Notes: generated from the sequence alone by a model not told the origin. A stretch of DNA of 64,000 bases from a candidate division LCP-89 bacterium B3_LCP (GCA_005223185.1 NJBN01000002.1:519036-583035), one strand, 5' to 3'; counted from the first letter of the stretch, positions 20,704 through 24,230 are shown. Program-made: numbers and translations.

Positions 20704-20905
20704 TTCAGGTTTATTTTTTGGTGATGCTGATTTTTCGTGCTGGGCTGATGTCAGATGTGGCGGTCAGAATGTGGCGGACAGATTTGGACGACTTTTTTGT
20801 CAGTGTGTAGAGCGGGTGGTTTTACAGGGTATTTTACAGGGTATTTTAGTGAGTGTGGGGACGGATAAAAGGAATTGAGTGTTGTATATAAAGGGCTATA
20901 TATAT

Positions 20906-21026: not shown

Positions 21027-21055
21027 TTGACAAAGTGATTGCTTCTTGGTATATT
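21027..21055 (+). promoter_or_regulatory. Promoter of the four-gene cassette
   Basis: TTGACA (21027-21032), 17 bp, TATATT (21050-21055). It is the only good plus-strand promoter before the cassette. The leader of about 145 bases holds a 14-codon open frame at 21150-21194 (MKPMWCDKCQIINT, with a CxxC pair), which may be a leader peptide, a gene remnant or chance. Confidence 0.7.
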
Positions 21056-21203
21056 ATGGTAAATTGTGGGATCAGTCAGGTGCTGAGAAGTGATAGTATA
21101 AGAATAGCCGACAAGGTATACCTACTATTCGCATAAGTGGGGACAGGAAATGAAGCCGATGTGGTGTGATAAATGCCAAATTATCAATACTTAGGTTTAT
21201 AAA

Positions 21204-21764
21204 ATGATCTCAAAGACAAGCATACGATCTTCCGGACCAATCGAAAATGGGCTTGATATAGTACTGACACTTCTCTATGCGCCAGGTGGCAGCGGACAAA
21301 AGTGCGAGCCAGTGCGAGGTATTACTCGTTTGCAGAAACTGTTGTTCTTGCTATGGAAGGAAGGTGCCTTTTATGAAGACATTCCAAACCTTTACAATTT
21401 TAAAGCTTACGACTTTGGACCATGCTTGGATGATATATATGATGACCTCGATTTTGCCGAAGACATCGGGCTAATTTATGTTAGCGAAGTGCCTTCTGGC
21501 AACGAGTATGAGGGTGGCGACGAGGATGCGTTTCTGGAGGATTTTGGTTTTAACTTGGTCAAGCGATCAACGCGAAGAGATTTCGAACTTACAGAAGCAG
21601 GGCGGGAGGCTGCAAGAGATATCTACGAAAATCTCGACACCGAACGGTGTCAACGACTTGAACAGATTAAGCGCAGGTTTAATTTCATGCCGTTCTTCGA
21701 CCTGCTGAGGTACGTGTACCGTAAATATCCTGTCTTTGCAAAAAAATCGGTTCTTTCCCTATGA
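21204..21764 (+). CDS. Hypothetical YwgA/Panacea (DUF4065)-like protein, first gene of the cassette
   Basis: The 186-residue soluble, acidic protein shows GITRLQKLLFLL (residues about 39-50), NFKAYDFGPCLDDIYDDLDF (about 64-83) and, at the end, FDLLRYVYRKYPVFAKKS. This order, a helix with RLQKLLFLL, then a Y.FGPYS-like turn and a terminal LLRYVY..YP, is typical of YwgA and Panacea/DUF4065 proteins, which are winged-helix-like antitoxin or phage-response modules. The match is by eye and moderate. The gene ends in ATGA overlapping the next start. With the three following genes it forms a compact unit. Confidence 0.55.
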   Translation: MISKTSIRSSGPIENGLDIVLTLLYAPGGSGQKCEPVRGITRLQKLLFLLWKEGAFYEDIPNLYNFKAYDFGPCLDDIYDDLDFAEDIGLIYVSEVPSGNEYEGGDEDAFLEDFGFNLVKRSTRRDFELTEAGREAARDIYENLDTERCQRLEQIKRRFNFMPFFDLLRYVYRKYPVFAKKSVLSL

Positions 21765-22321
21765 ACGAATTTATAATCGACAATAAGGAAGTTCTATCGA
21801 TTTGCACCTCACTGGCAATAATGTTACTATCTTTGGCCTTCGGTGGGATTCTCGCATGGCGCCACAAGATATGCCTAGAATATGAGAGCCAGAAGAATGT
21901 TGCTATTAGCATTCTCAACGACAGGTTTGTGCAACGTACAAGTGTCCACTATTCAGACATCGAGGAAGAACGGGAGCGAGATAAAACCTCCATTGAAGAG
22001 ATCTACAAGCGACCAGGGCAGCAACAGCTCGTACGAGAACTTGGAAGGGATCTTGAGGATCAAAACCGTGTGAAGCGTTACTTTCGTTGGCTTGTTAAAG
22101 TTAGCGGAGCTTCGTTCGGATTTCTCTGGGCTGCAATAATATTGATAGTGGTTGCAGTTGCACTTCTTTGGGCTGAATCACCCTTTGCAGTGTGGGTAAT
22201 ATGGTTACTTCTTCTAGGGACACTGCTGGTTGGATTTTTCTCGTCTATCACAGCAATGTGGATGCTCGACGGCCGATTCTTTAAGCTGGTTCACCGCGTT
22301 ATTGAACCTGAGGGGGAATGA
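21761..22321 (+). CDS. Hypothetical membrane protein with three hydrophobic segments, second gene of the cassette
   Basis: The 186-residue protein has hydrophobic segments at about 13-33, 117-137 and 141-166, with a charged helical stretch (about 35-110) that could form a coiled coil on the cytoplasmic side. No catalytic motif or known family is seen. The ATG overlaps the stop of the first gene by 4 bp, and the next gene begins 4 bp after its end, so it is tightly coupled to both. In a defence-like reading it would be the membrane partner or effector, but that is inference only. Confidence 0.55.
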   Translation: MNEFIIDNKEVLSICTSLAIMLLSLAFGGILAWRHKICLEYESQKNVAISILNDRFVQRTSVHYSDIEEERERDKTSIEEIYKRPGQQQLVRELGRDLEDQNRVKRYFRWLVKVSGASFGFLWAAIILIVVAVALLWAESPFAVWVIWLLLLGTLLVGFFSSITAMWMLDGRFFKLVHRVIEPEGE

Positions 22322-22324
22322 GGC

Positions 22325-22840
22325 ATGCCAAGAAAGCCATTAAAGGTGGTATTTAGCAGAGAAGTGGATATGTACTTGCCGCTGCTTAAGCTCTTTTCGA
22401 GTGTCGGACTGACTGTTGGGGAAGTACCATTTTTTGGAAAGCGAATCGATCTGCTTTTCGGAACACCATCGCTATTGAGCCTATATGCAGTTGAGACAAA
22501 ATTGCTTGACTGGCGGAGCGCCTTCAAGCAAGCCGCTCTGAATCAGCTCGCTGTTCAGCGGTCGTACATCGCTGTTCCAAGGAGACTCGCGACACGTCTC
22601 GCGGAGCAAGAAGAGGATCTGTTTAAAAAATATGATGTTGGCCTAATAGGAGTTGCCGAGTCCGCTAAAGTCCTTATTCCGCCTAATAAAAACGGATGTT
22701 TCAGCCCACGCCATTATCGCGTTCTCAAAGAGACGTTGAAAAGAACGCAACACAAGAAATCCAGCAAAATAGGAGTCGTAGCTGATGCCATTGCCGATCG
22801 CTCCAAAGCCCTGGTCGTTCTACAGGCTGGGACCGACTAA
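22325..22840 (+). CDS. Hypothetical protein with a PD-(D/E)xK nuclease-like core, third gene of the cassette
   Basis: The 171-residue protein carries GEVPFFGKRIDLLFG (residues about 32-46) followed by LYAVETKLLDWRSAFKQA (about 53-70). The spacing D...ExK, with a beta strand ending in IDLLF and a second with VETK, is the pattern of PD-(D/E)xK nucleases, where D40 and E57-x-K59 would be the metal and catalytic residues. The KQAALNQLAVQRSYIAVP helix after it also fits that fold (the QA helix). GAGG lies before the ATG. The last 56 bases overlap the fourth gene in another frame. Substrate and activity are untested. Confidence 0.6.
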   Translation: MPRKPLKVVFSREVDMYLPLLKLFSSVGLTVGEVPFFGKRIDLLFGTPSLLSLYAVETKLLDWRSAFKQAALNQLAVQRSYIAVPRRLATRLAEQEEDLFKKYDVGLIGVAESAKVLIPPNKNGCFSPRHYRVLKETLKRTQHKKSSKIGVVADAIADRSKALVVLQAGTD

Positions 22841-24074
22841 GGAAAAGGAACTTTTTAAGCGTCATCGGGACACATATGATGGTGTGGTAATTCCTGCACA
22901 CATTGCGTCTTACTATTCCACCTTTTGCGCTGAGTTCGTTGGTTCACTTCGTAAACCCTACTTTATCGATCCAATGACGTACATCTTTTCCAACGATCCG
23001 TCGCACCTCAAACGATTTGTAAAGGTCAAGGGTACGGGCCGCACAGAGCGGGACGGAGTGGGGCGCAAGAAGAAGGGCGACATTAAGCGTTCCTACTCAA
23101 AGCTGATCGATGACGTATACCAAGGGATAGTCAAAGCGGCGGTCGCTAATGACCGGTCGCTAGTGCCGGCCGACTTCACTGATGCCTCCATGAGCCAATT
23201 CGTCCAAAACGTGCTGGACTTCCAAAGAACAAGGCTGGTAGCTATCCCTGACAAATACAAGAAGTATGAGAAATATGTCCAGAAAGCGGATAAGCCAATG
23301 AGTATATCGGGTAACCTGCCCATGTGTCTTGTCGCGCCATACTTCCCAACGGCGACTTTGCACTCGCGAGGTTGGCATTCAACCAATCTTCAGCTGGTCC
23401 GGCAGGCCAAGGCGATGGCCGGCGGACTCCCCATCTTCGCTATGATCCTTGCCAGTCCCCATGTACTGGACAAAGACGTGAGGCAGATCGCCGCCGATTA
23501 TATAGCCACCGAAGTGGACGGATTCCTCTTGTGGCCGGATGGCTTCTCAAGCGACCAAGACCCGGCCGCGCTCCGCGTCGTCTTCAACGCGGTTGATGAA
23601 CTTAGCAGAAATGGCAAGCCGGTCATCCTTATGTACGGCGATGCGTTTTCGCTCGTACTGCACTATGCGGGCTTATCCGGCTTCGCTTGTGGAATCTGTT
23701 ACGGGGAACACAAGCTATCAACCCTGGATATGGATGTAGAAGGAGCGATTCCGCCACGTTATTACGTGCGAAGGCTCAAGAAGAAGTACGTTATCGATCC
23801 CGAGGCGATGCGTATAAGTATCGAACAGTATCCTGACCTTGTGTGTAACTGCGCTATCTGCCAGCGCAAGCCTGATCCCGCGACCTTGGACGATACCGAT
23901 TCTCGTGAGCATTTTATGTTGGTTCGATCCGCTGAGATTAACGAGCTCCGCGACGGCCTCTCACAGGCGGAATTTGCTGCAGCTCTGGACGAAGCATATC
24001 AACTTCACTGCAATGACCCACTCCTCCAGCCAATTACTCGCCTACGAAATTGGGTCTCCTTGTTGTCCTCCTGA
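22785..24074 (+). CDS. Hypothetical TIM-barrel-like protein with CxCxxC...H zinc motif (tRNA-guanine transglycosylase-like), fourth gene of the cassette
   Basis: The 429-residue soluble protein has alternating strand/helix blocks like a TIM barrel: GVVIPAHIASYY (about 32-43), KPYFIDPMTYIFSND (about 56-70), LPIFAMILASPH, VDGFLLWPDGFSSD (about 240-253) and KPVILMYGDAFSLVLHYAGL. Near residue 365 it has CNCAICQ with a His 17 residues later, close to the CxCxxC...H zinc site of tRNA-guanine transglycosylases and DpdA, although the usual gap to the His is longer. A base-exchange enzyme on RNA or DNA is possible. The start overlaps gene three by 56 bp. GC content is higher than in neighbouring core genes. 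The family call is inference. Confidence 0.5.
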   Translation: MPLPIAPKPWSFYRLGPTKEKELFKRHRDTYDGVVIPAHIASYYSTFCAEFVGSLRKPYFIDPMTYIFSNDPSHLKRFVKVKGTGRTERDGVGRKKKGDIKRSYSKLIDDVYQGIVKAAVANDRSLVPADFTDASMSQFVQNVLDFQRTRLVAIPDKYKKYEKYVQKADKPMSISGNLPMCLVAPYFPTATLHSRGWHSTNLQLVRQAKAMAGGLPIFAMILASPHVLDKDVRQIAADYIATEVDGFLLWPDGFSSDQDPAALRVVFNAVDELSRNGKPVILMYGDAFSLVLHYAGLSGFACGICYGEHKLSTLDMDVEGAIPPRYYVRRLKKKYVIDPEAMRISIEQYPDLVCNCAICQRKPDPATLDDTDSREHFMLVRSAEINELRDGLSQAEFAAALDEAYQLHCNDPLLQPITRLRNWVSLLSS

Positions 24075-24106
24075 TTCGCTAACCATGCGGGTACAATTTA
24101 AAAGTG

Positions 24107-24135
24107 CTGTCAGACGCCCTCGTCTGACAGTTTTT
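24107..24135 (+). terminator. Rho-independent terminator of the four-gene cassette
   Basis: A 10-bp perfect stem CTGTCAGACG/CGTCTGACAG with a 4-base loop is followed by TTTTT. A second, weaker hairpin (ATTCCGG/CCGGAAT, 24140-24161) follows directly. Confidence 0.88.
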
Positions 24136-24230
24136 CTGGATTCCGGGTCTTCGTCCGGAATGATAATTCCTGTTCCCACCTAAATTCCAAATTCTGCATT
24201 CTCCATTCAAAATTCTACATTCCCTATAGC

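Follow-up and report, generated by a model that had tools for sequence, protein, structure and literature searches.

Panacea is an antitoxin domain that is paired with membrane-depolarising or membrane-disrupting toxins as well as with RNases (PMC8832971), and PIN toxins belong to the same toxin-antitoxin network as Panacea (PMC10440598). The Panacea survey was limited to conserved clusters of at most three genes (PMC8832971), a limit that would explain why the larger module described here was passed over. We analysed a stretch of 64,000 nt from the candidate division LCP-89 bacterium B3_LCP (GCA_005223185.1 NJBN01000002.1:519036-583035), hereafter the window, and focus on a cassette of four genes, A to D, in which a Panacea-type gene (A) lies together with genes for a membrane protein (B), a PD-(D/E)xK-fold nuclease (C) and a protein with the fold of tRNA-guanine transglycosylases (TGTs) (D). 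We document the genes and the selection on them, their folds and motifs, their conserved linkage, the swapping of proteins in one variable slot, and the mobile and defence context. Our preferred explanation, to which we assign a probability of about 60%, is a mobile, toxin-armed abortive-infection module made up of C and D as its core, a switch of the Panacea type and a toxin that can be exchanged; the observations suggest that this module is a defence system not yet described. The features of the cassette are as follows.

21027 to 21055, plus strand: sigma-70 promoter, near-consensus TTGACA-17-TATATT with TG before the -10 element, scoring 11/12.
21204 to 21764, plus strand: gene A, 186 amino acids (aa), open reading frame (ORF) of the divergent SocA/Panacea (DUF4065) family by matches of its family members; proposed antitoxin/switch.
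21761 to 22321, plus strand: gene B, 186 aa, with an N-terminal transmembrane (TM) segment, approximately 100 soluble aa and a C-terminal TM hairpin; occupant of the variable toxin/effector slot.
22325 to 22840, plus strand: gene C, 171 aa, PD-(D/E)xK-fold nuclease (E13, D42, E57, K59, Q69).
22785 to 24074, plus strand: gene D, 429 aa, TGT fold with a CxCxxC...H zinc site and a non-acidic residue at the inferred nucleophile position.
24106 to 24131, plus strand: stem-loop followed by a T-run, candidate terminator, with a dispersed core palindrome.

A first interpretation made from the DNA alone (the sequence-only reading) had described four plus-strand genes with a 4-bp overlap between A and B, a 3-bp gap between B and C, and a 56-bp overlap between C and D; the genes and all three junctions agree exactly with the coordinates found here, the A-B overlap being ATGA. 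Each of the four is a genuine gene that evolves under selection. The nearest relative, L087 (6317-9201), which belongs to a distant group and was found among the genomes collected around one of Phycisphaerae, contains all four genes, and its proteins share 69% (A), 55% (B), 60% (C) and 57% (D) identity with those of the window, with a nonsynonymous divergence (dN) of 0.25-0.40 and a saturated synonymous divergence (dS). By contrast, the other aligned D homologues, including those from the window's own phylum, are 18-28% identical to window D. Moreover, the cassette is missing from all five same-family genomes searched. Together, the high identity of D to L087 and the absence from these five genomes argue that the module is horizontally mobile and has been transferred between distant bacteria. 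In the same-family genomes, lon-engB is kept and the genes after engB vary; a clean empty site was unobtainable because the sequence after engB is unlike in every one of these genomes.

Relatives of D were gathered from genome contigs, whole genomes, plasmids and viral contigs. Approximately 1.5% of the roughly 2,000 genomes searched were positive, a rate that is our own count with canonical TGT matches left out and that is biased, the genome sets having been chosen around positive genomes. Many matches to the D profile in archaea at E values of 1e-4 to 1e-6 were canonical archaeosine-type TGTs and were excluded. Among the 38 D loci inspected, C is present in 34 (the exceptions being L051, L057, L058 and one locus at a contig edge), A in 29, and A, C and D together in 28; the C and D genes mostly overlap, by 1-68 bases. 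The sequence-only reading would have been refuted had no other genome kept these genes together; 28 bacterial and archaeal loci do so for A, C and D. Archaeal genomes, one of them of Thorarchaeota, are among the hosts, as are genomes of Phycisphaerae and Flavobacteriaceae; the module is also present on Haloarcula plasmids, an Arthrobacter plasmid and three prophage contigs, which were retrieved from viral contigs with a sub-alignment of the D proteins of L007, L003 and L004. In known phage genomes, no relative was detectable with three D queries. The module, previously unnamed, is common to bacteria, archaea, plasmids and prophages. Decaying copies, i.e. L054, in which D is interrupted, and L085, in which a transposase adjoins a truncated slot gene, are consistent with a dispensable, conditionally useful system.

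This distribution bears on the idea that the four genes form a housekeeping operon of tRNA metabolism, for RNA modification or RNA repair, to which a regulator and a membrane anchor would belong. Such an operon would fit the fold and the zinc-site sequence that D has in common with archaeosine TGT; however, the module is patchy (approximately 1.5% of genomes, missing in the five same-family genomes), moves between distant groups (D at 57% to L087 versus 18-28%), swaps its effectors and lies in a genome that encodes a canonical TGT elsewhere, and we regard a housekeeping role as highly improbable.

Several side observations concern further loci with a member of the D family. In L067 (1645-4553; a 9-Mb genome), C-like, serine/threonine kinase-like and distant D-like genes are adjacent, possibly representing a further effector type. 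In three archaeal loci (L058, 6851-10103; L059, 2210-5603; L060, 5673-9055), a distant D is followed by a helical-repeat-like and a PIN-like protein, as judged by eye, and A is absent; C is also present in L059 and L060. In L057 (6499-8901), the order is D, A and a Fic/Doc-like protein with a DGNKR motif (by eye; PADLOC PDC-S23 at 2.6e-4), and C is absent. Neither the PIN-like protein of L059 nor the Fic-like protein of L057 has a Pfam match, and the PIN-like proteins of L058-L060 and the Fic-like protein of L057 were excluded from the slot counts given below. Finally, in L065 (3933-4652), a large insertion separates the D motif of C from its ExK motif, the D protein is diverged, and the genes adjoin a DNA methylase.

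The prophage contigs and the neighbouring genes place the module in mobile and defence-related surroundings. In L019 and L020, it has a CI-type repressor on one side and a large serine integrase on the other (both scanned in L020), and in L021 before a tyrosine-type integrase. The neighbours in other loci include the TdeIII endonuclease with a methylase (L062), a DNA methylase (L065), a DrmMI/type IIG-like methylase (L010), Cas6 (L050) and a Cas4-like nuclease gene (L051). The company of defence genes and phage-linked genes that the sequence-only reading had named for protein families of this kind is, by example, present.

Gene B, described earlier as a multi-segment membrane protein, indeed has three hydrophobic segments; in Pfam, NCBIfam and PADLOC, window B gave sub-threshold matches only. 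In 17 of the 28 complete loci, the corresponding slot contains a 3-TM protein as in the window, with one hydrophobic segment near the N terminus and two near the C terminus, separated by approximately 65-160 soluble residues. This topology is common to 17 of 18 slot proteins, the remaining one being cut by a contig end, and many of the 3-TM proteins have no detectable pairwise similarity to each other. Six loci contain a PIN protein instead, located between A and C in four archaeal loci and after A in two; it was identified by Pfam in L050, L052, L055 and L056, is near-identical to that of L052 in L053, and its gene is decayed in L054. In L055 and L056, A and the PIN gene form a pair that overlaps by 4 bp and is divergent from C-D, an arrangement as in a Panacea toxin-antitoxin pair. 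The remaining type is a SIR2-like gene, present 3' of D in four loci that have nothing between A and C (SIR2_2 by Pfam in L007, L011 and L019; 54% identity to L019 in L020). Exactly one of the 3-TM, PIN and SIR2-like proteins is present in 27 of the 28 loci and, as far as the contigs reach, never two. Mapped onto a tree built from 34 D proteins, the three slot states require at least five changes by parsimony; the deep branches of this tree are poorly resolved, and the well-supported branches alone force at least two changes for the membrane type and at least two for SIR2.

The published partners of Panacea, i.e. membrane toxins and RNases, with PIN in the network, are the kinds of proteins found in this slot. 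B is one filling of an exchangeable toxin/effector slot, and we infer that it is itself toxic. With B as one occupant of a variable slot, the reading shifts from the modification/restriction unit originally proposed to a toxin-armed abortive-type system; the conserved gene order and the defence and prophage company are in line with the putative defence role in that proposal. A Panacea-family protein with PIN, SIR2 or membrane partners and with plasmid and prophage copies would also be expected of a selfish toxin-antitoxin addiction module that carries two accessory genes and persists on mobile elements with no part in defence. We find this quite unlikely, given that C and D are more constant than the toxin and occur with A in 28 loci, and that pure addiction needs neither an invariant nuclease nor a TGT-fold protein.

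The assignment of A to the Panacea family, already made in the sequence-only reading, comes from the matches and annotation of its family members and not from window A itself. PF13274 was matched weakly by four of eight aligned A-family members (best 1.8e-4, below the gathering score), and the A homologues of L010 and L011 are annotated in their records as DUF4065 or SocA-domain proteins. Moreover, the A family matches PADLOC PDC-M19A (down to 6.6e-16), and none of the C or D proteins scanned matched a PDC-M19 model. On the strength of its family, we treat A as a divergent member of Panacea.

Window C has no significant assignment in Pfam, NCBIfam or PADLOC, and a sequence search of the Protein Data Bank (PDB) with C alone returned nothing useful. 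The AlphaFold model of C, with a predicted local distance difference test (pLDDT) score of 74, matches the folds of 3dnx (Z 13.4), PaqCI (10.2), AF2093 (10.0), XisH-type proteins (9.4-9.9) and EndoMS/NucS-type nucleases (8.9-9.2). The residues E13, D42, E57, K59 and Q69 are invariant in all 32 C homologues, and the motif is unchanged whichever toxin accompanies it. Together, the invariant motif and the fold make it likely that C is an active PD-(D/E)xK nuclease, whatever the toxin. The fold and the E57-x-K59 motif named in the sequence-only reading hold; the Asp is D42 rather than D40.

For window D, no significant assignment was obtained in Pfam, NCBIfam or PADLOC, including no Pfam TGT match; a PDB sequence search with D alone returned nothing useful, and the D profile did not retrieve any TGT from the PDB at the sequence level. 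Within the PDB, the likeness of D to TGTs is one of fold only. In the model of D (pLDDT 81), the six best Foldseek matches are TGTs, and the TGT matches in VIA have Z scores of 22-23, the best being archaeosine TGT (1iq8; Z 23.2, root mean square deviation 3.0, 299 residues, 12% identity). The zinc site is kept, with C354, C356 and C359 in 27 of 28 rows of the alignment and H376 in all 28, as is D62 (28/28). In a scan of a small TGT-locus set, the zinc region of D aligned with archaeal TGTs at about 1e-8 to 1e-5, and one of these, L068, was confirmed by Pfam. The earlier description of D as a TIM-barrel protein with CxCxxC...H that resembles TGTs is supported by these matches.

The last barrel strand of TGTs carries the nucleophilic Asp, in the motif FDCVLPT. 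The corresponding position in D was placed at residues ~300-302 from secondary structure, strand order and motif order; the global profile-profile alignment of D and TGTs is unreliable outside the zinc region, and the comparison at this site therefore relies on the order of the strands and the register of the motifs. None of the 28 rows has an Asp or Glu at this position, where D reads, e.g., FACGICYGE or VSHGVGYGE and the directly adjacent residues are not acidic either; further on, at E308, an acidic or Gln residue is conserved. In the absence of an acid at this position, D is probably not a base-exchanging enzyme, and binding or altered chemistry is more likely; D probably binds tRNA or other nucleic acid rather than exchanging bases. 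Moreover, inspection by eye of ORFs around the module and the family scans made turned up no DpdB, DpdC or further dpd genes. The DpdA-type, base-exchanging role that the sequence-only reading had entertained for D finds no support in either result.

These properties of C and D also fit the main competing explanation, i.e. a type IV-like restriction system. Here, D would act on foreign DNA (or modified tRNA) by recognising or removing 7-deazaguanine-type bases, C would cleave at these sites, and A-B would be a pair for back-up or addiction. A TGT fold with its zinc site, D62 and a non-acidic nucleophile position is expected of a reader and not of a writer, the active-site residues of C are invariant whichever toxin is present, and the DNA of some phages contains 7-deazaguanine-type bases (PMC6884629). 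However, this explanation leaves unaccounted for that the varying gene is the toxin; direct evidence for DNA as the ligand is lacking, and archaeal and bacterial copies alike would need one target. We consider it unlikely; addiction alone and a housekeeping role fit less well than either restriction or abortive infection.

In the abortive-infection module that we favour, the TGT-fold protein D would work with the nuclease C as a core, and the Panacea-type protein A would restrain the toxin in the variable slot, which in this genome would mean that A neutralises B. B is expected to depolarise or permeabilise the membrane; elsewhere, a PIN RNase or SIR2-like NADase would take its place. During infection, presumably by a phage, the C-D pair would detect or process a nucleic acid that is foreign or disturbed; A would then set the toxin free, with growth arrest or cell death as the outcome. 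Several points weigh against this explanation. First, window A alone has no match to the Panacea model. Second, the D-family loci L051, L058-L060, L065 and L067 are without A, and A is thus not universal among distant relatives. Third, L010 has no recognised toxin-like gene between or after the module genes. Fourth, no B homologue outside the module is known in the libraries used. Fifth, the defence neighbourhood consists of individual examples without a background control set.

Going further, we tentatively propose, as a possibility that falls well short of our preferred explanation, that a TGT-fold protein without base exchange has become an immune sensor: together with its dedicated nuclease, D would monitor the state of tRNA, or of 7-deazaguanine-modified DNA, in the course of an infection, and the Panacea switch would release the toxin of the locus, so that one core would serve bacteria and archaea with plug-in effectors. 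If the module acts in defence, it would represent a new family of defence systems in bacteria, several archaeal genomes (including Thorarchaeota), plasmids and prophages, and would bring together a protein of TGT fold, an invariant nuclease of the PD-(D/E)xK type and exchangeable toxins with a Panacea switch, a combination absent from the sources searched.

The promoter at 21027-21055, already pointed out in the sequence-only reading, scores 11/12 and is the sole TTGACA-N16-18-TATAWT in the 64-kb window (0.04 expected). The leader upstream of gene A is long and holds a 14-codon ORF with CxxC (MKPMWCDKCQIINT, 21151-21195), for which no conservation was found upstream of the cassette relatives. 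At the 3' end, the stem-loop with its T-run is present as described before; however, the hairpin core GTCAGACGCCCTCGTCTGAC (24109-24128, 20 bases) has three exact copies in unrelated places of the genome (the others in L112 and L113), and the T-run is missing at two of the three. The core is therefore a dispersed palindrome, and the hairpin as the operon's own terminator is plausible but not specific. Beyond it, 24140-24224 holds another palindrome (ATTCCGGGTCTTCGTCCGGAAT) together with a series of ATTC-rich near-repeats. The claim that the cassette is flanked by repeats does not hold: no direct repeats flanking it were found, and the nearby repeats are short tandem duplications, one of 14 bp (20755-20782) and one of 12 bp (20820-20843), in the interval from engB to the promoter, and they give no boundary signal.

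In the literature searched, there is no description of the A-C-D combination or of the module, and no library model covers C or D. Of the PADLOC candidate PDC-M19, the A-type protein is, as far as compared, the sole shared part. SPO1766 (3dnx) and AF2093 (2ph7) have folds close to that of C (Z 13.4 and 10.0), and 3dnx also shares the motif region; however, they are 12-14% identical to C, and no comparable system is described around them in the sources searched. Archaeosine TGT (ArcTGT, 1iq8) resembles D in fold, in CxCxxC...H with the surrounding sequence and in one conserved Asp (D62), whereas D lacks an acid at the inferred nucleophile position in the 28 rows and keeps different gene company.

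Among complete systems, the Dpd system (PMC12839542) is similar in having a TGT homologue, a nuclease and a defence setting, but the module has no identified DpdB- or DpdC-like neighbour and its D is not predicted to exchange bases. Similarly, the BREX-related HerA/FtsK systems place a TGT protein in a proposed defence cluster (PMC12839542); however, they have seven components, such as PglZ, DUF6079 and STAND, none of which was seen in the module. PanAT (PMC8832971, PMC10440598) likewise has a Panacea-family gene beside exchangeable toxins, including membrane-acting ones and RNases, in a prophage and plasmid context. By contrast, the module described here comprises four genes in the window and in most relatives, with an A that falls below the Pfam cut-off, and adds the conserved nuclease C and the TGT-fold protein D.

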